Below are positions 10,232 to 51,297 of a stretch of 64,000 bases of DNA, piece by piece. Position numbers and translations under genes: made by a program. The DNA lies in the NCBI RefSeq assembly GCF_021922925.1, contig NZ_CP040786.1, positions 3,038,001 to 3,102,000 of the forward strand, given 5' to 3'. Source of the DNA: Clavibacter phaseoli (lineage in GTDB: Bacteria > Actinomycetota > Actinomycetes > Actinomycetales > Microbacteriaceae). Below the pieces are notes generated by a model. The model saw only the letters and a list, made by a program, of their open reading frames with translations, was not told the origin of the DNA and searched no databases. Position 1 is the first letter of the stretch, and every line of letters begins with the position of its first letter.

Positions 10232-10339
10232 TCCGCGATCCGTCCGCGGCCGTCTCGATGCGGTCGCCACGGCCGTTTCGATGAGGCCGCGGTGGGGAAC
10301 GGGGTGAGGGACCCACCCGCTCGAACTGGAGGCCGCCCC

Positions 10340-11476
10340 GTGCCCGTCGTCGCCCCGCTCCACGAGACCTTCCCCGACGTCCGCTCCATCGCCGTGCTGC
10401 GCGGCGGCGGGCTCGGCGACCTGATCTTCGCGCTGCCCGCGATGGCGGCGCTGCGGGCCGCGTACCCGGGCGCCAGGATCACGCTGCTCGGCACGCCGCT
10501 GCACCGCGCGCTCCTCGGCGGCCGGCCCGGCGGGCCCGACGACATCGAGGTGCTGCCGGTGGCGCACGGCGTGCGGGACGTGCCGGGCACGGATCCCGAC
10601 CCGGAGGAGATCGAGGCGTTCGCCGCCCGCATGCGCGAGCGCCGCTTCGACCTCGCCGTGCAGGTGCACGGCGGCGGCCGCAACTCCAACCCGTTCCTCC
10701 TGCGGCTCGGCGCCCGGCACACCGTGGGCACCGCGACCGACGACGCCGAGCCGCTCGAGCGCGTGATGCCGTACGTCTACTACCAGCACGAGGTGCTGCG
10801 CGGGCTCGAGGTCGCGGGGCTCGCGGGCGCGCCCGCGGCCGACCTGGAGCCGGTCGTCGAGGTGACCGACGCCGAGCGGTCCGCGGCGGCGGAGCGCGTG
10901 ACGGGCGCGCCCGGCGGGCTCCTCGTGATCCACCCGGGCGCCACCGACCCGCGCCGCCGCTGGCCCGTCGAGTCGTTCGCGGAGGTCGCGCGCCGCGCCG
11001 CCGCCGACGACGCGCAGGTGGTCGTCGTGGGCGACGCGACGGACGCCGCCGACGCCGACCGCATCGTCGCGCTCGGCCGGGAGGGCCTGCCCGCGGAGCA
11101 GGCCGAGCGGATCACCTCGCTCGCCGACTCCCTCGACCTCGGCGAGCTCGCCGGCCTCTTCACGCACGCCGACGTCGTGCTCGGCAACGACAGCGGCCCG
11201 CGTCACCTCGCGCAGGCCGTCGGCGCGCGCACGGTCGGGGTGTTCTGGTTCGGCAACGTCGTGAACGCGGCCGCGTTCGGGCGCACGCGGCACCGGATCC
11301 ACATCGGCTGGACCACGCGCTGCCCCGTCTGCGGCGTCGACGTGACCCAGGTCGGCTGGACCGCCGAGCGCTGCGCGCACGACCCGTCGCACGTCGCGGA
11401 GGTGCGCGTCGACGACGTGCACGCGGACGTGGAGCAGCTGCGGCGGGCGTCGCTCGCGGAGCGCGTCACGGCCTAG
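10340..11476 (+). CDS. GT9 heptosyltransferase-like glycosyltransferase
   Basis: A 378-aa member of glycosyltransferase family 9, the ADP-heptose:LPS heptosyltransferase group. Motifs are the N-terminal RGGGLGDLIFALPAMAALR, the central HPGATDPRRRWPVE and the donor-binding GNDSGPRHLAQAVGARTVG. A cysteine-containing tail (TRCPVCGVDV) follows. The GTG start has CTGGAGG at a suitable distance and places the first motif at the expected position. It probably transfers a heptose or related sugar to a surface glycan. It stands alone between regulatory genes and ends at a strong convergent hairpin. Confidence 0.85.
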   Translation: MPVVAPLHETFPDVRSIAVLRGGGLGDLIFALPAMAALRAAYPGARITLLGTPLHRALLGGRPGGPDDIEVLPVAHGVRDVPGTDPDPEEIEAFAARMRERRFDLAVQVHGGGRNSNPFLLRLGARHTVGTATDDAEPLERVMPYVYYQHEVLRGLEVAGLAGAPAADLEPVVEVTDAERSAAAERVTGAPGGLLVIHPGATDPRRRWPVESFAEVARRAAADDAQVVVVGDATDAADADRIVALGREGLPAEQAERITSLADSLDLGELAGLFTHADVVLGNDSGPRHLAQAVGARTVGVFWFGNVVNAAAFGRTRHRIHIGWTTRCPVCGVDVTQVGWTAERCAHDPSHVAEVRVDDVHADVEQLRRASLAERVTA

Positions 11477-24289: not shown

Positions 24290-24784
24290 TCAGCCCGCGG
24301 GGGCGGGGACGTGCGCCGGTCGCTCGTCGCCGGGGTCGCGGGCGAAGGCGATCGCCTCCTCGACGATCCCGACCACCACCTCGAGCTCGGCCTCGTCGCG
24401 CGGACCGTAGACGAGGAACTCGGTGCCGTGGTCCTCGTACTGGTGCGGCGTCGCCCAGCCGAGCGCGGTGAGCTCGGCGCCGCGGGCGACCGGCAGGCAG
24501 AGGTGCAGGGACGTGTCGTCCACGCCGTGCAGGTGCACCGGCTCGAGGCGGCCCTCCGGCGCGAGCGAGGTCCACGGGACGACGGGCTCGGCGCGGTCCT
24601 CGAGGAACAGGCCGCGCGAAGAGGCGGGCGACACCTGGCTGTGGCCCTCGCGCACGCCGGGCAGCGCGAACGCGCGCGCGACGAGGCGGCCCCAGAGCCC
24701 GGGCGTCGCGCGGTCGGTGAGCTGCCGCTGCGGGCCGTCGTCGGAGAGCGTCGGACGGGGGCCGGGGCGCGGGGTGGAGATCAT
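24290..24784 (-). CDS. DUF5519 (luciferase-domain-like) protein
   Basis: A 164-aa cytoplasmic protein that fits the DUF5519 'luciferase domain' family by its C-terminal signature: HLHGVDDTSLHLCLP, then LGWATPHQYEDHGTEFLVYG and a closing helix with VVGIVEEAIAF. The family has no well-defined biochemical role outside a few oxidoreductase-linked members. It stands alone between a GH26 gene and the terminator of the heptose operon. Confidence 0.7.
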   Translation of the reverse strand: MISTPRPGPRPTLSDDGPQRQLTDRATPGLWGRLVARAFALPGVREGHSQVSPASSRGLFLEDRAEPVVPWTSLAPEGRLEPVHLHGVDDTSLHLCLPVARGAELTALGWATPHQYEDHGTEFLVYGPRDEAELEVVVGIVEEAIAFARDPGDERPAHVPAPAG

Positions 24785-24948: not shown

Positions 24949-25653
24949 TCACGGCCAGCTGTCCTCGAGCTCGTGCGTGATGACGAGCTCGCGGATCTCG
25001 CAGCCGCGCGGCTGGCCGAGGATGAACATCACCGAGTCGGCGACAGCGGCCGGGTCGTTGAGGTTCGCGTCGGAGCCGGGCTTGTACTTCGGGTCGCGGT
25101 CGTCGAAGAAGTGCGTCTTCATGCCCGAGGGGATCAGCGTGGTCACGCCGACCTCGCCCTTCGTCTCGGCGGCCAGCGCCCGGGTGAAGCCGAGCACGCC
25201 GAACTTGGAGGCGCAGTAGGCGGTGGCGTCCGAGACGGCCTTGATGGCGAGCGACGACGCGACGGTGACGACGCGGCCGTGCGACTCGGTGAGGAACGGC
25301 AGCGCCGCGCGGACGACGGCGACCGTCCCCATCAGGTTCACGCCGATGACCTTCTCCCACTCGGTGGGGGCGACGTCGACGAGGCGGCCGCAGCGGTCGA
25401 TGCCCGCGGCGGTGACGACGGCATCCAGGCCGCCGTGCGCCTGGGCGATCTCGGTGACGAGCGCCTCGGTGGCGCGGGTGTCGGAGACGTCGATGCGGTG
25501 CGCTTCCATGCCGGTGACGCTCGACGTGTCGAGGTCGAGCACGATGGGCTCGCCGCCGGCCGCGAGGACCGCCTGCGCGACCGCGGCGCCGAGCCCGGAC
25601 GCGCCTCCGGTGATGAGGACGCGGCCGGTGCTGGGGCGGGGGGAGTCGGTCAT
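24949..25653 (-). CDS. short-chain dehydrogenase/reductase
   Basis: A 234-aa classical SDR. The cofactor loop is LITGGASGLGAAV, and the catalytic Ser and Tyr-Lys are in VASSLAIKAVSDATAYCASK. It is too short and of the wrong subtype for HldD, which is an extended SDR, so it should not be called the heptose epimerase. It follows the second HldE gene by 53 bases on the same strand and may reduce or oxidise a sugar intermediate. An AGGAA site precedes the ATG. Confidence 0.88.
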   Translation of the reverse strand: MTDSPRPSTGRVLITGGASGLGAAVAQAVLAAGGEPIVLDLDTSSVTGMEAHRIDVSDTRATEALVTEIAQAHGGLDAVVTAAGIDRCGRLVDVAPTEWEKVIGVNLMGTVAVVRAALPFLTESHGRVVTVASSLAIKAVSDATAYCASKFGVLGFTRALAAETKGEVGVTTLIPSGMKTHFFDDRDPKYKPGSDANLNDPAAVADSVMFILGQPRGCEIRELVITHELEDSWP

Positions 25654-25706
25654 GGGTGTTCCTTCCGTGGAGCGGTGGTACGGGGAGTCGGTGGTGGTGA
25701 GGGGGC

Positions 25707-27089
25707 TCAGCCGACGCGCGCGAGGGCGCCGGCGAGCTTCGTGGTGGAGCGGCCCGGGTGGTACGGGACGGTCACGGCCTGGCCGCCCCACTCGGCGATG
25801 ACCGCTGACTCGGGGAGGTCCTCGGCGCGGTAGTCGCCGCCCTTGACCCAGAGGTCGGGCTTGATGGAGCGGAGCGCCTCTTCGGGGGTGTCCTCGGAGA
25901 AGAGCACCACCGCGTCGACGACGCCGAGCGACATGAGGAGGTCGACGCGGTCCTCCTCGGTCATGATCGGGCGCTCGGGCCCCTTGAGGCGGCGCACCGA
26001 GTCATCCGAGTTGAGGAGCACGACGAGGCAGTCGCCGAGCGCGCGCGCCGCGGCGAGCGTGCGGGCGTGGCCGGCGTGCACGAGGTCGAAGCAGCCGCCC
26101 GTCGCGACGACGGTGCCGCCCGCGGCGCGGGTCGCGCGGACCACCTGGAGGGCGCTCGCCGCGTGGCCGCCGATGGGGCGCGCGGCGGGCGGGCCGACGA
26201 GGGTCGCGACGCCGCCCGCGTCCACGTACTCGGCCGCGGAGGCGACGGCGTCGCGCACGGCGTCCTCGACGGGGGATCCCGCGGCCAGCGCCGCGAGGGC
26301 CGTGGCGGCCAGGCGGTCGCCCGCGCCGCACGGGTCGCCGGTCGCGACGAGCGGGGCGGGGACGACGACGGGCATGGATCCGCCGGCCGAGCCCGACGCG
26401 GGCGCCGACACGAGCAGGGCGCCGCGCTCGCTCATGGTGACGGCGACCGTGCGCACGCCCCACTGCTCGCGCAGGATCCGGGCGGCGTCGGCGGCCGCGG
26501 CGACGTCGCGCCCGGCCAGCCCGGAGAACGCGCGCGCCTCGGCGAGGTTCGGGGTGGCGAGCGCCGTGTTCGGCACGGGCGGCTCGCCCGCGGGGTGCGG
26601 ATCCCACACGAGCGGCACCACGGCGGCGCGCGCGTCGAGGGCGGCGCGGAGGCGGAGGTCGCGCGTGACGCCGCGGCCGTAGTCGGCGACGACGATGGCG
26701 TCGGCCGTGGCGATCGCGTCGAGCATCTCGTCGGTCGCGGCGGGCGTGGGCGGCGGGGCGCAGCCCTCGTCGATGCGGGCGATGGCGTGGCCGTCGGCGC
26801 GGACGCGGGTCTTCACGGGCGTGGGCGCGCCGGACGGGCCGGCGACCACCTCGATCCGTTGCAGGCACTCGCGGAGGGTCGCGGAGTGGCGGTCGTCGGA
26901 GAGCACGGTGACGAGGCGCACGTCGTGGCCGTCGCGCGCGAGCATCGTGGCGACGAGGCCTGCGCCGCCCGCGCGGGGCAGCGACTCCTCCACCTCGATC
27001 ACGGGGACGGGCGCGTCGGGGCTGAGGCGGTGCGCGGCGCCGGTCATGTCGACGTCGAGCAGCACGTCGCCGACCACGACGATCCTCAT
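25707..27089 (-). CDS. hldE: bifunctional heptose-7-phosphate kinase / heptose-1-phosphate adenylyltransferase (HldE-like), copy 2
   Basis: A 460-aa two-domain enzyme. Residues 1-300 are a PfkB-type kinase with GDVLLDVDMTG, RAGGAGLVATML and the catalytic GAGD at 255-258. Residues 320-455 are the adenylyltransferase with TGGCFDLVHAGH (HxGH at 338-341), RRLKGPERPIMTEEDR and WVKGGDY. It differs from copy 1 in the substrate-side segments and lacks the C-terminal tail. Its ATG overlaps the stop of the GT4-GmhA fusion gene. Set among GmhA and GmhB it is the better candidate for the enzyme that makes the nucleotide-heptose here. Confidence 0.9.
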   Translation of the reverse strand: MRIVVVGDVLLDVDMTGAAHRLSPDAPVPVIEVEESLPRAGGAGLVATMLARDGHDVRLVTVLSDDRHSATLRECLQRIEVVAGPSGAPTPVKTRVRADGHAIARIDEGCAPPPTPAATDEMLDAIATADAIVVADYGRGVTRDLRLRAALDARAAVVPLVWDPHPAGEPPVPNTALATPNLAEARAFSGLAGRDVAAAADAARILREQWGVRTVAVTMSERGALLVSAPASGSAGGSMPVVVPAPLVATGDPCGAGDRLAATALAALAAGSPVEDAVRDAVASAAEYVDAGGVATLVGPPAARPIGGHAASALQVVRATRAAGGTVVATGGCFDLVHAGHARTLAAARALGDCLVVLLNSDDSVRRLKGPERPIMTEEDRVDLLMSLGVVDAVVLFSEDTPEEALRSIKPDLWVKGGDYRAEDLPESAVIAEWGGQAVTVPYHPGRSTTKLAGALARVG

Positions 27090-29032
27090 GCCGGCACCTC
27101 CGCGGGCGCCGTCGTGGTGGACGCGGGCGCGACCGTCACGGGGACGGACGCGGACGCGGCGGCCGACGCGGACAGGGTCGCGGCGGCCGTCGTCGCGGAC
27201 GCGCGCGCCGCGGCCCGGTCGTTCGCCTGCAGCCGGCTCTCGAAGGAGCGGCAGATGGCGTGCACGGCGACGAGCTGCGCCTCCTGCACGTTGGCCGACG
27301 GCCCGTCGAGCGCGATGTGCTCGTCGCACGCCTCCACGAGCGGATTGGGGCCGGGGCCCGTCATCGCCCAGGTGGTGGCGCCGGCGGCACGAGCCGCAGC
27401 CGCGGCTCGGAGGAGGTTCTCGCTGCGGCCGCTCGTGGAGAGCAGCACGACGATGTCGCCGGATCTCGCGTGCGCGTGCACCTGCCGGGCGAAGACCTCG
27501 TCGAAGCCGTAGTCGTTGCCGATGGCCGTGACCGCGGACGACTCCGAGTGCAGCGCGATGGCCGAGAACGGGCGGCGGTCGCCGTCGAACCGGCCCACCA
27601 GCTCGCTCGTGAGGTGCTGGGCCTCGGCCGCGGATCCGCCGTTGCCCGCCGCGAGCAGGCGCGCGCCGCGGCTCATGCGGTCGGCCATCTCGCGGCCCCA
27701 CGCGGTGAGGCGCGGCGCGTGCGTGCGGAGGTCGGCGAGCACGGGGGCGAGCGCGTCGAGGTGGGCGTCGACCACGGTCGGGTCGGCGGGCAGGTCGTCG
27801 GGCGCGGCGGCCTGGATCGCGGCCCGGTACGCCTCCGCGGTGCGCGCCGCGACGGTCGACCACGCGTAGCCGTGCTCCATGCGGTCGCGGCCGGCGCGGC
27901 CGAGGCGGCGACGGCGGGCGGGATCCGCGAGCAGCCCCTCGAGGGCGTCCGCGATGGCGGCGGGGTCGCGCGGCGGCACGAGGATCCCCGTCACGCCGTC
28001 GACCACGCTGTCGGTGAGGCCGCCCACGGCGGAGGCGACGACGGGCACGCCCGAGGCCATCGCCTCGAGCGGCACGATCCCGAACGGCTCGTACCAGGGC
28101 GCGCACACCACGACGTCGGCGGTGCGCATCACGGCGGGCATGTCGGCCTGCGAGACGCGGCCGTGCAGGCGCACGCGGTCGGCGACCCCGGCGGCGCGCG
28201 CGGCGTCCATCAGGCGGCGGGCCTCGGTGTCCTCGCCCGCGCCCGCGGCGTCGCCGGATCCGCCGACGATGACCAGCTCGACGTCCCGGTGGCCGCGGCG
28301 CGCGAGGATCCCGACGGCCTCGATCGCGAGGTCGACGCCCTTGCGCGGCACCAGGCGGCCGACGACCATGACGCGCATCGGGCCGGCGTCGTCGTCGTAC
28401 GCGCGCGGCGTGAAGTGCTCGATGTCGACGCCGCAGGGGATCACGGTGATGCGGGCCGCGTCGACCCCTGCGCGCACGAGCTCCGCGGCCTCGTCGGAGC
28501 AGGTCGCGATGACCGCGTCGGCGCGGCGGCCGACCCCGGGCTCGAGCTCGGCGCGCGCGGCGGGGCTCGTGTCCTCGGCGCCGAGGTGGCGGCGCTTCAC
28601 GGATCCGAGCGCGTGGAAGGTGTGCAGCACGGGCGGCGCCGCGGCGGCGCCCACCGGGGAGGACGCGAGGCGCGCGGCGGCGTCGAGCGCGGCGACCCCG
28701 GACATCCAGAAGTGGCTGTGCACCACGTCGGGCCGCGCGGTGCGCCAGTCGGCGAGGAGGCCGTCGGCGAGCTCGCCCATGTGCGGCAGCAGCTCGTCCT
28801 TGGGGACGGCGCGGGCGGGTCCGGCGTCGAGGTGCACGACCTCCACGCCCGGCGCGAAGGCGACGCGCGCGGGCAGCGCCGCGTCGTCGCGGCGCGTGTA
28901 GACGGTGACGGTGTGGCCCTCCTGCGCGAGCGCAGCCGACAGCGCGGCCACGTGCACGTTCTGGCCGCCAGCGTCCACGCCGCCGAGCGTCGCCAGCGGG
29001 CTGGCGTGCTCCGAGATCATCGCGATCCTCAT
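27086..29032 (-). CDS. GT4 glycosyltransferase fused to GmhA-type sedoheptulose-7-phosphate isomerase
   Basis: A 648-aa fusion. Residues 1-410 are a GT-B glycosyltransferase of family 4: N-terminal GGVDAGGQNVHV, central VVGRLVPRKGVD at 223-234 and the EX7E motif around APWYEPFGIVPLEAM (Glu315, Glu323). Residues 430-600 are a SIS-domain phosphoheptose isomerase with AAGNGGSAAEAQHL (461-474), LSTSGRSENLL (531-541) and QEAQLVAVHAIC. GmhA converts sedoheptulose 7-phosphate to D-glycero-D-manno-heptose 7-phosphate, the first committed step. An Ala/Thr-rich tail follows. Both ends overlap the neighbouring genes by ATGA, so all are co-translated. Confidence 0.9.
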   Translation of the reverse strand: MRIAMISEHASPLATLGGVDAGGQNVHVAALSAALAQEGHTVTVYTRRDDAALPARVAFAPGVEVVHLDAGPARAVPKDELLPHMGELADGLLADWRTARPDVVHSHFWMSGVAALDAAARLASSPVGAAAAPPVLHTFHALGSVKRRHLGAEDTSPAARAELEPGVGRRADAVIATCSDEAAELVRAGVDAARITVIPCGVDIEHFTPRAYDDDAGPMRVMVVGRLVPRKGVDLAIEAVGILARRGHRDVELVIVGGSGDAAGAGEDTEARRLMDAARAAGVADRVRLHGRVSQADMPAVMRTADVVVCAPWYEPFGIVPLEAMASGVPVVASAVGGLTDSVVDGVTGILVPPRDPAAIADALEGLLADPARRRRLGRAGRDRMEHGYAWSTVAARTAEAYRAAIQAAAPDDLPADPTVVDAHLDALAPVLADLRTHAPRLTAWGREMADRMSRGARLLAAGNGGSAAEAQHLTSELVGRFDGDRRPFSAIALHSESSAVTAIGNDYGFDEVFARQVHAHARSGDIVVLLSTSGRSENLLRAAAAARAAGATTWAMTGPGPNPLVEACDEHIALDGPSANVQEAQLVAVHAICRSFESRLQANDRAAARASATTAAATLSASAAASASVPVTVAPASTTTAPAEVPA

Positions 29033-30123
29033 CGTGTCGTCCTCTCGTCGAGCGGGTGGGGCAGGGGGTGCGGGTCGGTGGGGCCGGGCGCGGCGACGGG
29101 GTGGGCGTCCGGCGGGGCGGTGGATCCCGCGGCCCGGCGACGCGCGCGCCGTCGGCCGGTCGCGTCCGCGGCGTCGTGCAGCACGGCGTCCATGTCATGC
29201 AGGAAGCGGCCGAGCGAGTAGCGGGCGAGCGCGGCCTCGCGGGCGACGCGGCCGCGGCGGGCAGCCTCGTCGGGATCCTCGAGCAGCAGGCGGGCGACGC
29301 GCACCAGGTCGGCGGGGTCGGACGAGATCGCGCCCGCATCCGGCGGCACCGCGCGCGACGCCTCGGTCGCGTCGAGCACGAGCACGGGCATGGCCATGTG
29401 CATCGCCTCGAGCAGCGACAGGCCGAGCGAGGTCCAGCGGTGCGGGTGCACGTAGGCGCGCAGCCGCGCGAGCTCGGGGTGCATGCGGGAGGTCGGCAGG
29501 TCGCCGCGCGGCACGATGCGGTCGCCGAGGTCGGGGAAGGCGCCCGGGAGGAGATCCGTGCCCATGCCGAACACCTCGACGGGCGCGACCGCCGCGAAGG
29601 CGGGAAGGAGGTCGGTGCCGGTGATGCGGCCGCGGCGCACGGGCTCGTTGATCACCGCGCCGAACGACGCGACCTCGCCCGTGTAGAGCGCGCCGGGGTC
29701 GGGCACGCCGTGCTCGACGACCGTCGTGGGCGCGACGCCGGTGTCCCACATGAGCGCGTTGAAGCGCGTGACGTGGATCACCGGGATGTCGTCGCGGCCG
29801 GCCAGCGCGTGCACCGTCTCGGTCGGGGCGCCGCGCGGGGTGTTGTGCTCGAGGAAGACGGCGGGCACGTCGGATCCGAGGCGGCGGCCCAGCAGGCGCT
29901 CCGCCTCCTCGATCTCGGCGACGCGCTGGAGCAGCACGAGGTCGACGTCGGCGTCGTGCAGGGACGACGGATCCACCTCGCGCGCGCTCGCGGGCCACGC
30001 GCGGCCGCCGCGGCCGAGTCCCCACGCGTCGCGCGCGGGCGTGGTGGGGAACAGGATCTCGTGGGTTCCGAGGACGAACGAGTCGGTCCAGCCGCCGTGG
30101 ACGTGCCACATCAGGATCCTCAT
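29029..30123 (-). CDS. glycosyltransferase, GT-B type
   Basis: A 364-aa protein with a glycosyltransferase C-terminal half: RWTSLGLSLLEAMHMAMPVL contains the acidic residue that binds the donor phosphate in GT4-like enzymes, followed by a DATEASRAVP loop. The N-terminal half is less typical (MRILMWHVHGGWTDSFVLG and LEHNTPRG). A basic and proline-rich tail of about 50 residues ends the protein. It lies between the GmhB-GT9 and GT4-GmhA fusions with four-base overlaps on both sides, so it probably acts on the same surface glycan. The sugar it adds is unknown. Confidence 0.82.
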   Translation of the reverse strand: MRILMWHVHGGWTDSFVLGTHEILFPTTPARDAWGLGRGGRAWPASAREVDPSSLHDADVDLVLLQRVAEIEEAERLLGRRLGSDVPAVFLEHNTPRGAPTETVHALAGRDDIPVIHVTRFNALMWDTGVAPTTVVEHGVPDPGALYTGEVASFGAVINEPVRRGRITGTDLLPAFAAVAPVEVFGMGTDLLPGAFPDLGDRIVPRGDLPTSRMHPELARLRAYVHPHRWTSLGLSLLEAMHMAMPVLVLDATEASRAVPPDAGAISSDPADLVRVARLLLEDPDEAARRGRVAREAALARYSLGRFLHDMDAVLHDAADATGRRRARRRAAGSTAPPDAHPVAAPGPTDPHPLPHPLDERTTR

Positions 30124-31703
30124 GCGGGCACCTCCGTGCGGCTCGTCGCCATGAGCCGCTCGACCGCGTCGGCGACCTCGGCGGGCGAGACGCCGGCGAG
30201 GCACGGGTGCCCGGGGACCGGGCAGTCGCGCGCGCGGCTCAGCTTGCAGGCCGCGTCCTGGTCGCCGAGCAGGATCACGGGCACGCGGTACGGCGCCCAG
30301 CGGATCGGCGGCACGACGGGCGAGAACAGGCTGACGACGGGCAGTCCCACCGCGGCGGCGAGGTGCGCGGGGCCGGTGTTGCCGCTCACGAGCACGGCCG
30401 CGCGGCGCATGAGGGCGCCCAGCCCGGCGAGGTCGGTGCGGCCGCCGAGGTCGAGGCCGGTGGATCCGGCGACGTGCGCCGTGAGCTCCCGCTCGTCGGG
30501 GCCGCCGGTGACGACCACGGGGATCCCGCGCTCGGCGAGCAGCGCCACGGCGTCGCGGTGCTGGTCGGCCGGATAGGAGCGCGCGCCGACCGCGGCGCCC
30601 GGGTGGACGAGCGCGAAGGGGCCGTCGGGGAGGAGCGCCTCCACGTCGGACGGCAGCTCGGCCGGCAGGACGGCGAGGCCCCCGTCGTCGTCGGTCGGCA
30701 GCGCGTGGCCGGCCGCGGCGGCGATCGCGAGGGCGCGCTCGGGCTCGGGCTGGTCCTCGTCGAGGTCCTCGCCGGGCTTGAGGCGCACGTCGAGGAGGGA
30801 GCCGGCGTAGTCGACGCTGGCGCCCGTGATCCGGCCGACGCCCGCGAGCCGCAGCAGCAGTGCGAGCGGGAGCGGCGACTGGTGGAAGGAGGTGAGGATG
30901 ACGGCCTCGTCCGCATCGACCTCGGCGAGGATCGCGTGCAGGGCGTCGACGGACGCGGCGTCGGCGGCGGGCGCGGGGGAGGAGATCCACGGCGCGTCCC
31001 ACACGTGCACCGCGTGGACGCCGGGGAGCAGCCGGCCGGCGGACGCGCCGCGCGGACCGCAGAGCAGGTGAACCTCCACGCGCGGGTCGGCGGCGACCGC
31101 GCGCACCGCGGGTCCGGAGATGAGCACGTCGCCCACGGAGTCGAGGCGCACGACGAGCACGCGGCGGGGCGCGGGGTCGTGGATGAGGAGGTGGACCGCG
31201 TCGAGGATCGTCGGGGCCACCAGCTCCGCCTCGGCCACCTCCTCCTCGCGCGTGACGGGCGTCGGCACGAGCACGCCGCGCGCGCCCGCGGCCCGGGCGG
31301 CGCCCATGTCGGCGGCGATGTCGCCCACGACGGCGACGCGCGACGGATCCACGCCCCACGTCCGGCAGGCCTCGAGCACCATGCCCGGCTGGGGCTTGCG
31401 GCAGTCGCAGCCGTCGTCGGAGCCGTGCGGGCACAGCAGCACGAGGTCGAACGCGCCGAGCAGCTCCTGCACGCGCGCGTTGACGGCGTCGGCCTGCGCG
31501 CGCGTGATGAGGCCGCGCGCGATGCCGGACTGGTTGGTCACCATGCCGACGCGCAGGCCCGCGGCGCGCACGGCGTCGATCGCCTCGCGGGCGCCGGGCA
31601 TCAGCGTGACGAGGTCAGGGTCGCCGTTGTAGGGCACGTCGACGACGAGCGTGCCGTCCCGGTCGAACAGGACGGCCTCGAGGTCGTTCCCGGGCGAGCG
31701 CAT
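30120..31703 (-). CDS. GmhB-type heptose bisphosphate phosphatase fused to GT9 heptosyltransferase
   Basis: A 527-aa fusion at the head of the heptose operon. Residues 1-170 are a HAD phosphatase with the nucleophile motif FDRDGTL (Asp14, Asp16), TNQSGIARG, the zinc-binding CPHGSDDGCDCRKP (Cys91, His93, Cys99, Cys101) and GDIAADMGAA, matching heptose 1,7-bisphosphate phosphatase. Residues 180-520 are GT9 with VVRLDSVGDVLISGP, HPGAAVGARSYP and SGNTGPAHLAAAVGLP. Thus one chain removes the C7 phosphate and another module uses the finished donor. The ATG is preferred over a TTG 33 bases upstream because the HAD fold then begins normally. Confidence 0.9.
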   Translation of the reverse strand: MRSPGNDLEAVLFDRDGTLVVDVPYNGDPDLVTLMPGAREAIDAVRAAGLRVGMVTNQSGIARGLITRAQADAVNARVQELLGAFDLVLLCPHGSDDGCDCRKPQPGMVLEACRTWGVDPSRVAVVGDIAADMGAARAAGARGVLVPTPVTREEEVAEAELVAPTILDAVHLLIHDPAPRRVLVVRLDSVGDVLISGPAVRAVAADPRVEVHLLCGPRGASAGRLLPGVHAVHVWDAPWISSPAPAADAASVDALHAILAEVDADEAVILTSFHQSPLPLALLLRLAGVGRITGASVDYAGSLLDVRLKPGEDLDEDQPEPERALAIAAAAGHALPTDDDGGLAVLPAELPSDVEALLPDGPFALVHPGAAVGARSYPADQHRDAVALLAERGIPVVVTGGPDERELTAHVAGSTGLDLGGRTDLAGLGALMRRAAVLVSGNTGPAHLAAAVGLPVVSLFSPVVPPIRWAPYRVPVILLGDQDAACKLSRARDCPVPGHPCLAGVSPAEVADAVERLMATSRTEVPA

Positions 31704-36969: not shown

Positions 36970-38280
36970 CTACTCGTACCGCAGCGAGGTCACCGGGTCG
37001 GCGCGCGCCGCCCGGGCCGCGGGCAGCGTCCCGGCGAGGAACGCGATCGCCATCACCACGAGCACGATGGTCGCGATCGATGCCGGGTCGAACGCGATGA
37101 GCGTCAGCCCGGGCAGGTTCGACAGCACCGTGCTCGAGAGCGCGGCGCTGATCCCCGTGCCCGCGGCCACCGCGATCACGACCCCCACGGCGCTGCCGAG
37201 GAACCCGATGAACGCGGCCTCGATGCTGAACAGCGCGAACACCTTGCCGCTGCTCTGGCCCATGGCCTTCATCAGCCCGATCTCGCGGGTGCGCTCCTGC
37301 ACCGACATGAACAGGGTGTTGACGATGCCGAACGACGCCGCCAGGAGCGCGATGATCGCGAACCCGTTGAGCACGAGCACGATGCCGTCGATCACGGTCT
37401 GGAACGTGCCGAGCTGATCCGCGACGGTCGTCCCCGTGTAGCCGGCGTCGGCGAGGCGCGTCTTCAGCGCGTCCACGTCGGCGTCGGTGGCGGAGTCGTC
37501 GAACGTGACGGTGGCCTGCGCGTACCGGTCGGCCTGGTCCGCGGGCAGGCCCGTGTCCGCGGCGGTCGACAGCGCGGTCGTGAGGGCCTGGTTCGTGGTC
37601 ACGCTGGATCCGGCGGCCGCCGCGATGCTCTCCTCCGCGACGCCGACCACGGTCGCGTCCACGGTGTGCGGCGCGCGGGCGGCGTCCGTCACGGCGAGCG
37701 TCACGGTCTGCCCGACGGCGGACGCGTCGTCCGCGAAGCCGAGCGGCCCCACGTACGAGGTCGGCAGCACCACCTGCAGCGCGGACGATGCGTCGTCGGG
37801 CGCGCTGCCCGCGGTGAGCGTCAGCGTCTGGCCGGGGGCGAGGCCGGACGCGCCGACCACGTACCGCGTGCCGTCGCCCGCGGCGATCCAGTCGGTGGCG
37901 AGCGACACGGTCGGCTGCACGGCGCGCACGCCGTCGACGCCCTTCAGGGTCGTGATGTCGTCGGGCGTGAGCGCCACCACGGTCGAGCCGGGGCGGCTGG
38001 TCGCGGATCCGCTCGCGACCGTGTCGGGGTCGTACTCGCGCGGGCCGCTGGGCGCGGGGCCCGCGGTCGCGTCGTCGCTCGCGCGCGTGACGGTCATGGT
38101 GTCGGAGGACCCGACCGCGCCGACCGTGGAGGCGATGTACCGGTCGATGCCGGTGCCGATCCCGTTGGTGAGGGTCAGCGTGAACGCGCCCACGAAGATC
38201 GACAGGATCGTGAGGACGAGCCGCGTCTTCGAGCGGAACGTGTTGGCGACGGCGGACCGGACCAGGTCGAGCGGCCTCAT
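36970..38280 (-). CDS. MacB/FtsX-type ABC transporter permease
   Basis: A 436-aa membrane protein with one N-terminal helix (about 21-42), a large external domain (about 45-300) and three C-terminal helices in an FtsX domain. The cytoplasmic segment [20 protein letters not shown] is diagnostic of the MacB/LolC family. Such proteins work by mechanotransmission on envelope substrates or export peptides and lipoproteins. The gene overlaps its ATPase gene by four bases. The downstream two-component system suggests envelope-stress or antimicrobial control. Confidence 0.9.
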
Positions 38281-39035
38281 GCGGCCACCGCCCCGGACGC
38301 GGAGCCGGCGGAGACGGCGGCGTGCGCGCCATGCGGACGCGGGCCGTCATCCCCGGAGTCCTCCACGATCAGGCCGTCGCGGATGAGGATCCGCCGGTCG
38401 CAGCGGGCCGCGAGGTCCTCGTCGTGCGTGACGACGATGAGCGTGATCCCGCGCTCGCGGTTGAGCGCGAACAGGATGTCCTCCACCACGGCGCCCGTCG
38501 CCGAGTCGAGGTTGCCGGTGGGCTCGTCGGCGAAGATGATCCGCGGGTCGTTGACGAGCGCGCGCGCGATCACGGTGCGCTGCTTCTGCCCGCCCGAGAG
38601 GTCGCCCGCCCGGTTGCGGGCCTTGGCGTCGAGCTCGAGCTGCGCGAGCGCCGCCATGCCGCGGCGCCGGCGCTCCGTGCGCGGGACGCCCGCGATGGTC
38701 ATCGGCAGCATCACGTTCTCGAGCACCGACTGGCTCGCGGTGAGGAAGAACTGCTGGAAGACGAAGCCGAAGGTGCGGTTGCGCGTGCGGTCGAGCCGCT
38801 TCCCTCGGAGGGTGGACGTGTCGACGCCCTCCAGCTCGATGGTGCCGGAGGTGGGCGCGTCCAGGAGCGCGAGCGTGTGCATCAGGGTCGACTTGCCGGA
38901 TCCGCTCTTGCCGACGATCGCGAGGCTCTCGCCCTGCCGGACGTCGAGGCTCACGCCCTTCAGCGCGTCGAAGCGGCTCTGGCCGCGGCCGTACGACCTG
39001 CGCACGTCCCGTACCCGGATGATGGGGGTGTCCAT
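38277..39035 (-). CDS. MacB/LolD-type ABC transporter ATPase
   Basis: A 252-aa ATPase with Walker [13 protein letters not shown], the signature [17 protein letters not shown], Walker [13 protein letters not shown] and the switch histidine in [11 protein letters not shown]. The type is that of LolD/MacB partners. A ribosome site CGAGGAGG stands just before the ATG. It is divergent from the histidine kinase gene (167 bases apart), an arrangement common for bacitracin-type sensor/transporter modules. Confidence 0.92.
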
Positions 39036-39202
39036 GGTCCTCCTCGGTGGTCGGGCGCCGGTGGTCCGGGCCCGCATCGAGCCTCGCCGTCGGGGGCGCT
39101 GGGCGCGTCGTCCGTCCGCGTCGGCCGCGTACCGCGGGCGCGGTATCCGCGCGGGTCCCGCGGGGTGACGCGCCCGGCGTACGGGTCCGGGATCATGAGG
39201 GC

Positions 39203-40390
39203 ATGCCCGATCCCGCCGCCGCGCCGCGCCCGCCCGCGTGGGTCGGCGACGTCGTCGCCGGGATCCTCGTCGCGGTGGCCGCTTTCGCGCGCTTCCCCGG
39301 CGGCGAGTACCGCACCGACTCCGCGCTCACGCTGGCCCTGGCGCTCGCGCCCGTCGCGGTGCTCCCGTTCCGCCGCCGGTTCCCCGTGCCCGCGCTCGCG
39401 GCGTGCCTCGCCCTGTTCGGCGGGGCCGCGTTCGCGGGGCTGCTCGGGCCCGGGATCCTGCTGTCCGTCGCCGTCGCGATGTTCGGCGTCGCGAACCGGC
39501 GCGACCGGCGGCGGGCCGGGATCGCCGCGGCCGTCTCGGTCGTCGCCGTGCTGGGGCTCAGCCTGCTGGCGTCGGTGGGATCCGTGTTCGACCCGCGCAT
39601 CATCCAGTTCGCCGTCATCACGGCCTTCGCGGCGGCCGCGGGCGACGCCACCCGCTCCCGGCGCGAGTTCATCGCCGCCGTGGTCGACCGGGCCGAGCGC
39701 GCCGAGCGGAGCCGCGAGTCCGAGGCCCGCCGCCGCGTCACCGAGGAGCGGCTCCGCATCGCCCGCGACCTGCACGACGCGGTGGCGCACCAGATCGCGG
39801 TCATCAGCCTCAACGCGGGCGTCGCGTCGTCCGCCGTCGACACCCGGCCGGAGAAGGCGAAGGAGGCGCTCGTCACCATCCGCAGCGCGTCGCGCGCGGT
39901 GCTGCACGAGATCGGCGACCTGATGGAGATGCTCCGGCACGGCGAGGACGCCGGGGAGGGCGCCGGATCCGCCGCGCAGCCGGGCCTCGACCGGCTCGAC
40001 GCGCTCGTGGAGCAGTTCGCCACCGCGGGCCTCGCCGTGACCGTGCGCGTCGAGGGCGACCGGGCGGCGATCGCCGGCGCCGCCGACCTCGTCGCCTACC
40101 GCGTGGTGCAGGAGGCGCTCACCAACGCGCACAAGCACGGATCCGCGGGGCACGCGCACGTGCTCGTCGAGGTGGGCGACCGCGAGGCGCGCATCGTCGT
40201 GACGAACCCCGTGCCCGCGCCGGACGTGCGGCCGGGCACCGCCGACGCCGCCACCCGGCCCGACGGCCACGGCCTGCTCGGCCTGCGCGAGCGGGTGGAC
40301 GCGGTGCGCGGCCGCATCGAGGCCGGCACCGCACCCGGCGGCTGGCGGCTCGCCGCCAGGCTGCCGCTCACCCGCGAGGAGACCCCGTGA
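39203..40390 (+). CDS. NarL-type sensor histidine kinase
   Basis: A 395-aa membrane kinase with about four N-terminal helices (up to residue 145), a HisKA_3 dimerisation domain with phospho-acceptor His191 (RIARDLHDAVAHQIAVI), and a C-terminal ATPase domain with VVQEALTNAHKHG and GLLGLRERVDAVRG. No large external sensor domain is present, so it may sense within the membrane or through the neighbouring ABC transporter. Its stop overlaps the GTG of the response regulator gene. Confidence 0.92.
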   Translation: MPDPAAAPRPPAWVGDVVAGILVAVAAFARFPGGEYRTDSALTLALALAPVAVLPFRRRFPVPALAACLALFGGAAFAGLLGPGILLSVAVAMFGVANRRDRRRAGIAAAVSVVAVLGLSLLASVGSVFDPRIIQFAVITAFAAAAGDATRSRREFIAAVVDRAERAERSRESEARRRVTEERLRIARDLHDAVAHQIAVISLNAGVASSAVDTRPEKAKEALVTIRSASRAVLHEIGDLMEMLRHGEDAGEGAGSAAQPGLDRLDALVEQFATAGLAVTVRVEGDRAAIAGAADLVAYRVVQEALTNAHKHGSAGHAHVLVEVGDREARIVVTNPVPAPDVRPGTADAATRPDGHGLLGLRERVDAVRGRIEAGTAPGGWRLAARLPLTREETP

Positions 40391-41190: not shown

Positions 41191-41859
41191 ATGAGCGCCA
41201 TCCAGGCAGTGACCACCCCCGGCGAGATCCATCCGAGCGAGGGGTACGACGGCTTCGTCGGCTGGGTCCTCTCGCTCATCGAGACGCTGGGGGAGGTGGG
41301 CGTGGGCCTCGCGGTCCTCATCGAGACGTTCGTGCCGCCGATCCCCTCCGAGGCGATCCTCCCCGTCGCCGGCTTCCTCGCCTACGAGGGCCGGATGAGC
41401 GCGTGGGGCGCGTGGGCCGCGGCCACCGTCGGCGCGCTCGTGGGCGCGCTCATCTGGTACGCGATCGGCGCCGCGCTCGGCCGGGATCGCACCCGCCGCC
41501 TCGTCGGCCGGATCCCGCTGCTCGACCACGCCGACTTCGACAAGGCCGAGGCCTTCTTCGTGCGGTGGGGCGGCACCGCCGTGCTCGTCGGCCGGTGCGT
41601 GCCGCTCGTGCGCTCCTTCATCTCCATCCCGGCGGGCATCGAGCGCATGCCCATCGGGCGCTTCTCGCTCTACACGGTCCTCGGATCCGGCGCCTGGAAC
41701 GCCATCTGGGTGGGCCTCGGCTTCGCGTTCGGCCCGGCGATCCGCCCGGTGCTGGAGGAGTGGAGCGGCCTGATCTCGTACGCGGCCGTCGGCGTCATCG
41801 CGCTGCTCGTGCTCTGGTTCGTGGTGTCGCGGCTGATCCGGCGGGTGCGGACGGCCTGA
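41191..41859 (+). CDS. DedA family membrane protein
   Basis: A 222-aa integral membrane protein of the DedA (SNARE-associated/VTT) family. Typical segments are ETFVPPIPSEAILPVAGF and GGTAVLVGRCVPLVRSFIS with PAGIERM. DedA proteins scramble or recycle undecaprenyl phosphate and other lipids across the membrane. GAGAGG precedes the ATG. It stands alone and converges on an ABC gene across a C-rich tandem repeat. Confidence 0.9.
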   Translation: MSAIQAVTTPGEIHPSEGYDGFVGWVLSLIETLGEVGVGLAVLIETFVPPIPSEAILPVAGFLAYEGRMSAWGAWAAATVGALVGALIWYAIGAALGRDRTRRLVGRIPLLDHADFDKAEAFFVRWGGTAVLVGRCVPLVRSFISIPAGIERMPIGRFSLYTVLGSGAWNAIWVGLGFAFGPAIRPVLEEWSGLISYAAVGVIALLVLWFVVSRLIRRVRTA

Positions 41860-43569: not shown

Positions 43570-46487
43570 GCTGCATCCCCTTCTCGGAGCACCGCGGCGA
43601 GGCGGTCGTGGCGGTGGGCGGCGGCCTCGGCGAGGATCGCGAGGGCCGTGAGCAGGAGGGCGGCGCCGGCGACCGCGAGCACCACGGCGGGCGCGATCGA
43701 GGGCGGGGGATCCGCGCGGCCGCCCGTGAGCAGCCGGAGGCCGAGCGCGGGACCGAGCGCCAGCACGGTGACGACGGCCGCGACCGCGCCGCCGACGAGC
43801 GCCGCGAGCACGGACGGCGCGAGCTCCGCGACGGCCAGGGGGATCCCGCCGCGTCGCGGCAGGCCGAGCGTGCGGAGGAGGGCGAGCGTGCGGGCGCGGC
43901 GGCCGGCGCCGGCGACCGCGGTGGCGAGGAGGGCGAGGGCCGCGAGGATCCCGGCGGCGGCCGTCGCGAGCGCGAGCACGAGGTCCACCCCGCCCGCGAG
44001 CGCGCCCGTGGAGCGCTCGGCCTGCCAAGTGTCCCGAGTGAGCACGTCGGCGGGATCCACGTCGAGGGCCGCGACCGCGGCGACCGCGCCCGGGCCGGTC
44101 ACGAGCACCTGGTCGGCCACGATCGGCTCGCCCGCCCAGTACGCGAGCGCGCCCCGGTCGACGATCACGAAGGGGCCGCCGAGGTAGCCGCGCGGGCCGT
44201 CCGCGATCACGCCCGCGACACGCACGCGCACGTTGCGCTCGCCGAAGGTGAGCACGGGGTCGTCGATGACGAGGCGGTCGGCGAGGGCGCGGTCGACGAG
44301 GACGGGGAGGCGGTCGTCCCGGGCGGGCTCGTCGGCGAGGGCGCGGATCCGGTCGGCGTCCAGGGGGTCGACCGCGTCGGCGTCGGCGGGGATGGCGGCG
44401 AGCGCGTCGGCGTAGCCGGCGTCGACGGCGAGCAGGGTCGCGAAGGCCTGCACGGGGCCGTCGGCGAGGAGCGCGTCGTCGGTGACGCGGGCGGATCCGG
44501 CGGCCGTCACGCCCGGCGCGTCGCGGAGCCCCGCGACGTCGGCGTCGGGCACCTCCGCGTCGACGCGCGCATCCGCGCCCACGGCCTGCCACGACGCGGC
44601 GACGCGCCCGGTGGCCACGGTCTCGGCGAGGAGCCCGCCCGTGAGCGCGACGGCGACCGCGAGCGTCAGCGCGCCGAGCGGGAGCGGCGAGGCGGGGGAT
44701 CCGGTGGCGCCGGCGACCGCGCCCAGCGCGCCGCGACCGCGTCGGGCCAGGGCGGCGAGAGCCGCGAGGGCGGGCGGGATCGCGCGGACGGCGACGAGGG
44801 TGGCGGCGGCCGCGAGGAGGAGGGGCGCGGCGGCGAGCAGCGGATCCACGCCGTCGGCGCGCGCGTCGAGGAGGCCCCTGCCGCGCGCGGCGACCACGGC
44901 GGCGATCGCGAGCACGACCACGAGCGCCTCGGCGACGAGGCGGCGGATCCGCGCGGTGCGGCGCGCGTCGACGCGTCCGGCCCGGCCGACCTCGCGGCGG
45001 CCGGCGTCGCCGGAGCGGCGGGCGATCCACGCGGCCTCGGCGGGCGCGGCCAGCGCGGCGACGGCGATCAGCAGCACCACGGGCGCGGGATCCGCGAGCG
45101 GCCACGGCACCCCGAGCAGGACGGCGGCACCCAGGCCGGCCGCCCCGCCGACGACCGCCAGCAGCGCCGACTCGACGCCCGCGGTCAGCGCCACGGCCGT
45201 CGTGCCGGCGCCGCGCGCCCGGTCGCGTGCGATGTCCTCGCGGCGCCGGCCGACCAGCAGCCGCGCGAGCAGCACGAGCACGACCGCGGCGACGCCGAGG
45301 GCTCCGGCGAGCAGCACCGACATCTGCGCGACGGCCGCGCGCGCGGCGTCGTCGTGGGCGGCGACCACGCGGTCGAGGCCGGACGTCACCTGCAGCGGGG
45401 CCGCGGATCCGCCGACCTCCGCGCCGTCGACGCCCACCGGCGCCGTGCCCGCGGCCAGGCGCTGCACGTCGCGCACGACCGCCCGCGCGCCCTGGTCGGT
45501 GAAGGCCGCGGGGTCGAGGCGGACGCGGATCACGCCGTCGCCGTCCGCGAGGTCGGCCGTGCGGGCCAGGTCGAAGCCGTCGGCCGCGGCGACGACCGTG
45601 ATGCCGGCGGTGGATCCGGGGGCCCGGTCGGCCGCGGCCACGGGCGCGAGGAGGCCCGGGAGGTCGGGGAGCGACGTGCCGGGGGCCGCCTCGACGATGC
45701 CGACCACGCGGATCCCGAGGAGCGGCGCCCGGCCGTCGATCCGGTCGGCGCCGCCCTGCGCGACGGTGAGCGCGGATCCCACGACGAGGCCGGCCGCCTC
45801 CGCCGCGGCGGACGAGACGGCGACCTCGAGGGGGCCGTCGGGGGAGGTGCCGATGCGCGGGCCGGGCTCGGCGTCGGCATCGCTCGCGGTGCCGGGCAGC
45901 GCTCCGTCCACGACGCGCAGGCCGTCGGCGAGCGACGGCGTCAGCAGCGCGACGCGCACCGCGGGCGTCGCGGGTGCACCGCCGCCGTCGCCGGTCGATC
46001 CACCGGATCCGTCGGGCTGCGCGCCGACCGTCAGGGGCCCGATCGCGAGGGTGCCGGGCGTGAGGACGGCGCTCGTGATCCCGTCCGCGGCGCGCGCGAG
46101 CGCCCGGGGCAGCTGCGCGGGGAGCGCGTCGGCGAGGGCGACGACGTCCTCCGGCTCGACGGATCCGCCCTCCTGCGTCCGGCCGAGCGGGGCGCGGAGC
46201 ACGACGTCCGCGGTGGATCCGGCGGCGGCGACGCGCTCGCGGACGTCGGCGTCGAGGATCCGCGTCACGAGCGCCGGCGCGCCCGCCGCCAGCAGCGCCG
46301 ACACGGCGACGAGCAGCGCCAGGCACGCGGCGAGCCCGCGGTCGCGGAGGAGCCGGCGCGGCGCGAGGGGGAGGATTCCCGCGGTGAGGACGCGGAGACG
46401 CGCGCCGGCGCCCGGCGCGCCCGGACGACCCACGCGACCCGGCCTCGCCCGGCGCCCGCCCGGATCCGCCGCCCGCCGCCCGCTCAC
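43566..46487 (-). CDS. large FtsX-like ABC permease, 973 aa
   Basis: A long permease with an N-terminal helix at about residues 50-70, two large external domains and helix bundles in the middle and at the end, as expected for two FtsX-like halves in one chain. The C-terminal segment RARTLALLRTLGLPRRGG corresponds to the cytoplasmic coupling loop (ReiGLLRalG type). GTG is chosen because it overlaps the upstream stop as GTGA and has GGAGG six bases before it; this adds about 34 Arg/Gly-rich residues before RVLTAGILPLAP. The substrate is unknown. Confidence 0.82.
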   Translation of the reverse strand: MSGRRAADPGGRRARPGRVGRPGAPGAGARLRVLTAGILPLAPRRLLRDRGLAACLALLVAVSALLAAGAPALVTRILDADVRERVAAAGSTADVVLRAPLGRTQEGGSVEPEDVVALADALPAQLPRALARAADGITSAVLTPGTLAIGPLTVGAQPDGSGGSTGDGGGAPATPAVRVALLTPSLADGLRVVDGALPGTASDADAEPGPRIGTSPDGPLEVAVSSAAAEAAGLVVGSALTVAQGGADRIDGRAPLLGIRVVGIVEAAPGTSLPDLPGLLAPVAAADRAPGSTAGITVVAAADGFDLARTADLADGDGVIRVRLDPAAFTDQGARAVVRDVQRLAAGTAPVGVDGAEVGGSAAPLQVTSGLDRVVAAHDDAARAAVAQMSVLLAGALGVAAVVLVLLARLLVGRRREDIARDRARGAGTTAVALTAGVESALLAVVGGAAGLGAAVLLGVPWPLADPAPVVLLIAVAALAAPAEAAWIARRSGDAGRREVGRAGRVDARRTARIRRLVAEALVVVLAIAAVVAARGRGLLDARADGVDPLLAAAPLLLAAAATLVAVRAIPPALAALAALARRGRGALGAVAGATGSPASPLPLGALTLAVAVALTGGLLAETVATGRVAASWQAVGADARVDAEVPDADVAGLRDAPGVTAAGSARVTDDALLADGPVQAFATLLAVDAGYADALAAIPADADAVDPLDADRIRALADEPARDDRLPVLVDRALADRLVIDDPVLTFGERNVRVRVAGVIADGPRGYLGGPFVIVDRGALAYWAGEPIVADQVLVTGPGAVAAVAALDVDPADVLTRDTWQAERSTGALAGGVDLVLALATAAAGILAALALLATAVAGAGRRARTLALLRTLGLPRRGGIPLAVAELAPSVLAALVGGAVAAVVTVLALGPALGLRLLTGGRADPPPSIAPAVVLAVAGAALLLTALAILAEAAAHRHDRLAAVLREGDAA

Positions 46488-50244: not shown

Positions 50245-51297
50245 ATGCAGACCCCCGGCGACCCCGCCGCCCTCCCCGACGACGCCCGCCCCGCGACCGG
50301 CACCGACGACGCCCCGCACCCCGAAGAGATCCTCGTCCTCCGCGCCATCAAGCTCGGCGACATCCTCGTGGCCGTCCCCGCGCTCCGCGCCATCCGCCGC
50401 GCGCACCCCGACGCCCGCATCTCGCTCGCCACCACCGGCTGGCTCGCGCCGGTCGTCCGGCTCCTCGGCATGGTCGACGAGCACCTCCCGCAGCAGGGAT
50501 TCGACCACCCCATCTCGCGCGAGCCCGGCACGGTCGACCTCGCGATCAACCTGCACGGAGCGGGCGTCGAGAGCCGCACGCTCCTGCACGAGCTGCGCGC
50601 GCACCGCACCCTCGGCCACGCCGCCCCCGAGCTCGACGGGATGCCCGCCGCGGACGGCCCCGCCTGGGAGGACCACGTCCTCGAGCGCTACCGCTGGGCC
50701 CGGCTCGTGTCCTGGCACGGCATGCCCGCGGATCCCGAGGACGTCGGCATCCTCGTGCCCGTCGAGCCGCCCGTCGCGGAGCACGCCGTCGTGATCCACG
50801 TGGGCGCCGCCTACGGATCCCGCCAGTGGCCCGTCGACCGCTTCGCCGCGGTCGCCCGCGCGCTCGCCGACGAGGGCCGCACGGTCGTCTTCACCGGCAG
50901 CGACAAGGAGCGCGAGCGCGCCCTCGAGGTCGCCGCGATCGCGGGCATGCCCACGGAGACCGTGCTCGCGGGCGAGCTGGCGCTCGACGCGTTCGCCGGC
51001 ATCATCGCGGCCGCCGACCTCGTGATCTCCGCCGACACCGGCGCCGCCCACCTCGCGACCGCCTACGGCATCCCCTCGGTCGTGATCTTCGGCCCGGCCC
51101 CGCCCGAGGAGTGGGGCCCGCCCGCGTCCGGCCCGCACATCGTGCTGACCGACGCGTCCCAGCGCCTCGGCGACACCTTCTCCGCGATCCCGGATCCGGC
51201 CCTCCTCGCGATCACCCCGGCGCACGTCCTCGAGGCGGCCCGCTCCCTCGGCGGCCACCGCGTGATCCGCCCCCTCACGGGCGAGCCGCGCGACTGA
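50245..51297 (+). CDS. GT9 heptosyltransferase-like glycosyltransferase
   Basis: A 350-aa GT9 enzyme. Motifs are LRAIKLGDILVAVPALRAIR near the N-terminus, NLHGAGVESRTLL, VGAAYGSRQWP, and the donor-binding SADTGAAHLATAYGIP with VIFGPAPPEEWGP. It is a third GT9 module in this window, besides a single-domain protein near 11 kb and the GmhB fusion. It probably adds heptose or a similar sugar to a surface glycan. It is divergent from the giant permease operon and ends nine bases before the convergent DUF1266 gene. Confidence 0.87.
   Translation: MQTPGDPAALPDDARPATGTDDAPHPEEILVLRAIKLGDILVAVPALRAIRRAHPDARISLATTGWLAPVVRLLGMVDEHLPQQGFDHPISREPGTVDLAINLHGAGVESRTLLHELRAHRTLGHAAPELDGMPAADGPAWEDHVLERYRWARLVSWHGMPADPEDVGILVPVEPPVAEHAVVIHVGAAYGSRQWPVDRFAAVARALADEGRTVVFTGSDKERERALEVAAIAGMPTETVLAGELALDAFAGIIAAADLVISADTGAAHLATAYGIPSVVIFGPAPPEEWGPPASGPHIVLTDASQRLGDTFSAIPDPALLAITPAHVLEAARSLGGHRVIRPLTGEPRD

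Follow-up and report, generated by a model that had tools for sequence, protein, structure and literature searches.

A conserved locus for predicted nucleotide-heptose synthesis in the Gram-positive genus Clavibacter, with an envelope glycan as its likely product

The window analysed here, a stretch of 64,000 nucleotides (G000:C1:3038001-3102000) from a Clavibacter genome of 3.23 Mb in two contigs, carries a conserved locus that we read as one for nucleoside diphosphate (NDP)-heptose and heptosyltransferase-family enzymes in a Gram-positive bacterium, with an envelope glycan as the product; we give this reading a probability of about 0.7. The genes were identified by family, order, conservation, catalytic residues and the absence of an HldD or LpxC match, and from these the enzyme activities, the donor nucleotide, the substrates of two dehydrogenases, the acceptor and the envelope destination are predicted. 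The core of the locus is an operon of five minus-strand open reading frames at 24949-31703. An initial annotation had placed GmhA, GmhB and HldE activities plus glycosyltransferases there, which is borne out by profiles, PDB relatives and catalytic residues. In the order of transcription the genes are as follows.

30120 to 31703, minus strand: GmhB-type heptose-1,7-bisphosphate 7-phosphatase (HAD, N-terminal) fused to a GT9 heptosyltransferase-family domain (GT9a); by Pfam, NCBIfam and PDB relatives.
29029 to 30123, minus strand: GT4a, a GT4-family glycosyltransferase; by family profiles.
27086 to 29032, minus strand: GT4b (MshA/sucrose-phosphate-synthase-like) fused to the sedoheptulose-7-phosphate isomerase GmhA (SIS); by profiles and PDB relatives.
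25707 to 27089, minus strand: HldE1, heptose-7-phosphate kinase and heptose-1-phosphate nucleotidyltransferase with the C-terminal motif YHPGRSTT; by profiles and PDB relatives.
24949 to 25653, minus strand: classical short-chain dehydrogenase/reductase (SDR), probably a heptose-pathway enzyme; by profiles.

The first three junctions, between genes 1 to 4, are 4-nt overlaps, and the SDR starts 53 nt past HldE1. Five coupled genes had been claimed originally; the five reading frames are present, but only four of them overlap, and the fifth, the SDR, had been left unnamed. A small 'luciferase domain' protein (PF17648) lies immediately downstream of the SDR at 24290-24784 and occurs in one of the compared stretches of three sister genomes.

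Pfam, NCBIfam and PDB sequence matches concur on a GmhB-type HAD domain, GT9, GT4, phosphoheptose isomerase, HldE and a classical SDR. The GmhB domain scores 127 bits against PRK08942 (E 5e-37; NCBIfam cut-off 178), and the GT9a domain matches PF01075 with an E of 5e-20. The best isomerase model for the SIS domain is the phosphoheptose isomerase PRK13936 with 143 bits (cut-off 276) versus 83 for DiaA, and TIGR00441 gives 132 bits (cut-off 209). HldE1, a PfkB kinase joined to a nucleotidyltransferase, is best matched by the HldE model PRK11316 (271 bits, cut-off 521), its nucleotidyltransferase domain reaching 179.3 bits against TIGR02199 (cut-off 181.5). GmhA, GmhB, HldE1 and all three GT9 proteins of the locus score under the curated equivalog cut-offs of NCBIfam, as the GT9 proteins also do against the lipopolysaccharide (LPS) heptosyltransferase models. 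Therefore, the assignments rest on the ranking of the models, the PDB relatives and the conserved catalytic residues.

Residues that we take from knowledge of the families to be catalytic in GmhA, GmhB, HldE1 and GT9a were followed through related loci, namely the best 80 of 375 confirmed HldE1 matches, with all nine parts of the locus compared in each. The counts include the window, and four loci were dropped for GmhB, one for the HldE1 nucleotidyltransferase and six for GT9a. Glu57, Gln163 and His171 of GmhA are kept in 81/81 sequences. Asp14 and Asp16 of GmhB are present in 76 of 77 (one gap) and its Cys-His-Cys-Cys set in all 77. Asp258 of the HldE1 kinase is found in 81/81, both histidines of HxGH in 80/80 and the arginine of the GRSTT motif in 74 of 80 rows, while GT9a retains Asp14 in 75/75. 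The ratios of nonsynonymous to synonymous substitution (dN/dS) for the five core genes, measured against three other genomes of the genus, are 0.02-0.23, which argues that the operon is not a product of chance. All three families of the beta-D-manno-heptose nucleotide pathway (GmhA, HldE and GmhB) are thus encoded with intact catalytic residues, supporting a predicted route from sedoheptulose 7-phosphate to NDP-heptose. The GHMP kinase HddA and the guanylyltransferase HddC are not in the operon, to which that search was confined; since the kinase is PfkB and the transferase CTP_transf_like, the operon does not fit the guanosine diphosphate (GDP)-alpha-heptose branch.

By its sequence relatives, the host is a Gram-positive actinobacterium of the genus Clavibacter. 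The best segments of HldE1 are 90-96% identical to four named Clavibacter loci, with 96% for Clavibacter tessellarius, and a C. californiensis entry is likewise 96% identical; the G+C content of the window is 70-81% in 4-kb steps. No LpxC match was found in the host genome, with a positive control that gave matches in 4 of 14 named genomes. The genome therefore does not fit LPS core heptose synthesis, for which the lipid A pathway would be expected, and the earlier proposal of a Gram-positive actinobacterial host without LPS holds.

The five-gene operon is part of a larger heptose locus, which includes a second HldE, an aldehyde dehydrogenase (ALDH) and two further GT9 proteins:

664 to 2211, minus strand: HldE2, a second kinase/nucleotidyltransferase paralogue with the motif YVPSQSTS, 37% identical to HldE1.
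2208 to 3758, minus strand: ALDH with a GTG start and a 4-nt overlap with HldE2.
10292 to 11476, plus strand: GT9b, a heptosyltransferase-family protein whose orthologue adjoins the SDR in Curtobacterium.
50245 to 51297, plus strand: GT9c, a heptosyltransferase-family protein whose Curtobacterium orthologue lies directly upstream of GmhB.

The pathway set first described is complete, but larger than its five genes. A genome-wide search for GT9 returned three genes, every one inside the window, and a search with HldE1 returned two full-length HldE, both in the window, with a third, partial match of 35 bits elsewhere. The nucleotidyltransferase domain of HldE2 scores 196 bits against TIGR02199, above the cut-off of 181.5, and Cys283, Glu249 and Asn153 of ALDH are present in 54/54 aligned sequences. 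The nine parts stand in the same order in three other genomes of the genus, with dN/dS of 0.02-0.31 (some parts at part length, and the ALDH of one genome, G109, dropped for a stop).

Related clusters in Curtobacterium, some Arthrobacter and a metagenome-assembled genome of Microbacteriaceae are compact, in the order GT9c (minus strand), GmhB, GT9a, GT4a, GT4b, GmhA, HldE1 and SDR (plus), GT9b (minus), then ALDH, HldE2 and GT2 (plus). The window keeps this order and the relative orientations, stretched over about 50 kb. All seven core domains are matched within the locus in 76/80; a Thermoleophilaceae locus has a GT9 match that does not adjoin GmhB. The SDR is present in 67 of the 80 loci and GT9c in 49. 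Downstream sequence of at least 7.5 kb is available for 71 loci, of which 52 have ALDH, 55 HldE2 and 34 GT9b. In Curtobacterium loci with enough flank, ALDH, HldE2 and GT9b are each found in 22/22 and GT9c in 25/25, and the GT2 is unmatched in part of them. ALDH, HldE2 and GT9c were not in the fetched flanks of the four Clavibacter loci, nor GT9b in that of one. The 13 loci lacking the SDR come from Streptomyces (6), Modestobacter (4), another member of Geodermatophilaceae, Actinomadura and Pseudarthrobacter, the last with a contig end at that place.

Both fusions proposed earlier, GmhB-GT9 and GT4b-GmhA, are confirmed by domain profiles. GmhB-GT9 is found in 4/4 Clavibacter loci and 0/71 other assessable loci (five not assessable), and GT4b-GmhA in three of the four Clavibacter loci and 1/75 others, a single distant case (one not assessable). 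These counts rule out the fusions as a general design and, apart from the single distant GT4-GmhA, confine them to Clavibacter among the loci compared.

The distribution was followed in 199 genomes of the family drawn evenly, 396 of the phylum and 18 of the genus, the host genome being counted in each sample. At E <= 1e-30, HldE is present in 31 of the 199 family genomes, of which 27 have HldE1 (three with split or partial matches) and four only an HldE2-like gene, defined by 33-42% identity to HldE1, the reference in place of HldE2, and by position. In 27/27 genomes with HldE1 the HldE2-like gene lies on the same strand, 4.4-31 kb downstream. All 18 genomes of the genus match both HldE, some in fragments: the matches are partial and split over contigs in G592, HldE1 is spread over more than one frame in G595 and G601, and G600 has two matches in one frame. 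An HldE-like match was found in 50 of the 396 phylum genomes, 28 of them at 320 bits or more.

As the initial annotation had noted, HldD was not seen. No match to TIGR02197 exceeds the cut-off in the host genome, in any of the 199 family genomes or, with the best 5-10 candidates scored per genome, in any of the 50 phylum genomes with an HldE match; one of the 396 (G577) has HldD over the cut-off. Thus the L-glycero branch is not indicated in the host. The best TIGR02197 match elsewhere in the genome is RmlB, with 445 bits to TIGR01181 (over its cut-off), the second reads like GalE from its N-terminus and the remaining five are weaker. HldD is an extended SDR. The SDR of the operon is of the classical type and is therefore ruled out as a stand-in of the same family, but it could still act at C6.

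At E <= 1e-55, with up to 14 candidates scored per genome, 29 of the 199 family genomes have an orthologue of the SDR; these are the 27 with HldE1 plus two in which only the HldE2-like gene occurs. It is therefore found in 29/31 genomes with HldE versus 0/168 without (Fisher p 8e-33, genomes treated as independent). As it is present only among HldE genomes, the SDR is probably a heptose-pathway oxidoreductase. Its dN/dS of 0.02-0.05 is the lowest among the parts, and N106, S133, Y146, K150 and D40 do not vary among 23 sequences; an aspartate at position 40 usually indicates use of nicotinamide adenine dinucleotide (NAD). The structure model (predicted local distance difference test score 90) matches classical SDRs, aldohexose dehydrogenases among them. 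The suggestion that the D-glycero form is used directly is consistent with the missing HldD, but 'directly' is not established, as the sugar may be altered by the SDR, which co-occurs with HldE.

The donor had been described as of the adenosine diphosphate (ADP)-heptose type. The NDP-heptose route stands, but the nucleotide may also be cytidine or uridine diphosphate (CDP or UDP). According to PMC11573728, an arginine at position 5 of (F/L)XXGRSTT, the STTR5 motif, marks nucleotidyltransferases that make CDP- and UDP-heptose; PMC11461863 states that this arginine is not strictly needed for promiscuity towards nucleoside triphosphates (NTPs). HldE1 of the window shares the arginine but starts with tyrosine (YHPGRSTT) instead of F/L, and HldE2 has glutamine (SQSTS). 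Position 5 of HldE1 is Arg in 73, His in six and unread in one of 80 loci, and that of HldE2 is Arg in 26, His in 27, Gln in one and unread in one of 55. Judging from the motif, the donor made by HldE1 may be CDP- or UDP-heptose as well as ADP-heptose, and we predict that HldE1 and HldE2 may differ in donor because position 5 differs (Arg versus Gln in the window).

For the destination, the leading idea is an envelope (wall) glycan, a best guess by analogy because the gene order matches part of the cwg operon of Streptomyces coelicolor. PMC5839063 gives the cwg cluster (SCO6179-6190) a tentative role in cell-wall glycan synthesis, with SCO6186 as phosphoheptose isomerase and SCO6187 as a bifunctional synthase/transferase. 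According to three further papers, the operon is partly sigma-E dependent and vancomycin-induced (PMC6767563), cwgA is activated by salt (PMC13011467), and the glycosyltransferase SCO6185 ranks in the top five of 13 candidate genes for stability of transcription (PMC4630627). One Streptomyces locus among our related loci, L079, has the order epimerase, carbamoyltransferase, GT2, GmhB, GT9a, GT4a, GT4b, GmhA, HldE1, GT9c; SCO6185-6188 as printed in Table 2 of PMC5839063 (transferase, phosphoheptose isomerase, bifunctional synthase/transferase, transferase) correspond to its GT4b-GmhA-HldE1-GT9c. Judged from annotation order and the Streptomyces loci, cwg and the window probably share core genes. 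They also differ: L079 carries a carbamoyltransferase, epimerases and a GT2, unlike the window, and near the Streptomyces loci SDR is found in 0/6, ALDH in 0/5 and HldE2 in 0/5. The carbamoyltransferase (L079:2153-3916), upstream of the Streptomyces heptose cluster, suggests a carbamoylated sugar in that lineage.

Besides the sub-threshold profile scores, several observations weigh against an envelope glycan made from this locus. The likeness to cwg is one of annotation order, not of sequence compared directly with S. coelicolor. At the place of GmhB in L079, the printed entry for SCO6182 is 'dehydratase', and the other cwg genes given in PMC5839063 are labelled only as transferases. No match to the published cwg sigma-E promoter turned up in the related loci, in a scan run without a positive or shuffled control: the best site, with 7 mismatches in 29 positions, lies on the opposite strand of a Pseudarthrobacter locus, and the Streptomyces loci listed have 9-11 mismatches. 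Neither the core operon nor ALDH has a recognisable promoter of the extracytoplasmic function type in its 400 upstream nucleotides, and the host genome gave no match to the GT2 seen in related clusters. Among the 40 window proteins covered by the Pfam scan, which did not extend to every reading frame, none was recognised as a polymerase, a wall ligase or an enzyme that starts synthesis on a lipid carrier. For transport or flipping the only candidates are sugar-uptake permeases, ABC parts of the FtsX type, a generic ABC exporter (55782-57830) and a VTT/DedA protein (41191-41859), none with a recognised tie to the locus.

The lack of recognised membrane partners for GT4/GT9-type glycosyltransferases would also suit a heptoside natural product, a small molecule that is soluble or secreted, as would the generic ABC exporter 4.5 kb beyond GT9c and the likeness of GT4b to MshA and sucrose-phosphate synthase, makers of small glycosides. 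Heptose natural products have two cases in support, one being hygromycin B. The other is septacidin of Streptomyces fimbriatus, as given in PMC11461863. Against it, matches to both HldE in 18/18 Clavibacter genomes and low dN/dS are not what is usual for a specialised metabolite cluster; there are three GT9 genes, no scaffold-making or self-resistance gene was recognised among the scanned proteins, and cwg is an envelope-stress operon (PMC6767563). We consider such a product unlikely. An enzyme drift, in which the SIS, PfkB and HAD proteins serve a different sugar phosphate without making heptose, would account for the scores under the NCBIfam cut-offs, but it is highly improbable: other SIS, PfkB or HAD families, which the initial annotation had named as possible better fits, do not score better, the heptose models rank best for isomerase, kinase/transferase and phosphatase in one operon with GT9, catalytic and zinc residues are conserved, and the nucleotidyltransferase domain of HldE2 passes its cut-off.

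GT4b bears on an intracellular glycoside, such as a mycothiol-like protectant or a storage oligosaccharide. It aligns end to end, over about 400 residues, with MshA and sucrose-phosphate synthase (6kih, 3c4q), but at 253 bits against a cut-off of 462.5 it is not classed as MshA. Four positions of MshA, equivalent to K78, F108, A141 and R160 of GT4b, are presumably ligands of the acceptor phosphate. K78 and R160 (aligned to Arg154 of MshA) are kept in 79/79 sequences, two loci being dropped, while Phe (F108) and Ala (A141) uniformly replace Tyr110 and Thr134 of MshA in 79/79. If these four positions do bind the acceptor phosphate in MshA, the acceptor of GT4b may be a phosphorylated compound other than inositol phosphate, perhaps heptose 7-phosphate from the fused GmhA. 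The fusion, however, is not general (1/75 assessable loci outside Clavibacter), and GT9 enzymes are known from surface glycans, so that we hold this product to be quite improbable.

Within the envelope-glycan reading, HldE1 would probably take several NTPs, HldE2 would be a second donor-making enzyme, and the sugar used, since no HldD was found, would be the D-glycero form, which the linked SDR (and ALDH) may first oxidise. A more specific and only tentative form is an HldD-free two-donor system, in which HldE1 and HldE2 give different NDP-heptoses (for example CDP/UDP- and ADP-heptose) to the three GT9 and the NAD-type SDR, with ALDH in some lineages, oxidises heptose to a keto-heptose or hepturonic acid bound for a cell-wall glycan. 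We know of no such sugar described in Gram-positive bacteria. If true, this form would give CDP/UDP-heptose a physiological role.

Other genes lie between the pieces of the locus. Those at 3863-24167 make up a region for carbohydrate use, with genes for an alpha/beta hydrolase, GH35, two GH26 proteins, LacI and ABC sugar permeases as well as ROK and two MocA-type oxidoreductases. Three other genomes of the genus have GH26, GH35, LacI, the hydrolase and one of the permeases; their compared stretches yielded no ROK, MocA, FtsX or histidine-kinase gene. Between GT9c and the core operon, 36970-40390 and 46484-50083 hold a 1199-residue FtsX-domain reading frame along with genes of the FtsX permease, ABC ATPase and histidine kinase types, none of which has a close match in the same three stretches. 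The VTT/DedA-type membrane protein, also between GT9c and the core operon, has 95-97% counterparts in the three sister genomes. Transport of undecaprenyl phosphate is a function of some members of the DedA family. The relatives of the VTT protein are weak (43-51 bits) in 5/25 Curtobacterium loci and close in one of four Clavibacter loci, too little to include a lipid-carrier link.

Heptose use by a Gram-positive Streptomyces and the sensing of NDP-heptoses in general by ALPK1 (PMC11573728) are already known. New here are how far the locus extends, the link to the SDR, the pairing of two HldE, the lack of HldD over the family sample and the tie to cwg; none of the titles and abstract beginnings listed describes this locus for Clavibacter or its family. 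An envelope-stress operon with a so far only predicted product is thereby tied to a complete heptose pathway in Streptomyces, Arthrobacter, Curtobacterium and Clavibacter. A candidate heptose-modifying SDR is named, the product of cwg and the purpose of CDP/UDP-heptose become testable questions, and Gram-positive plant bacteria join the likely makers of NDP-heptose. Similar to the heptose pathway known from Gram-negative outer membranes, the locus encodes the GmhA, HldE and GmhB families with a beta-type PfkB kinase and nucleotidyltransferase. In contrast to that pathway, it has neither HldD nor an LpxC match, and contains fused proteins, two HldE paralogues, an SDR and an ALDH.

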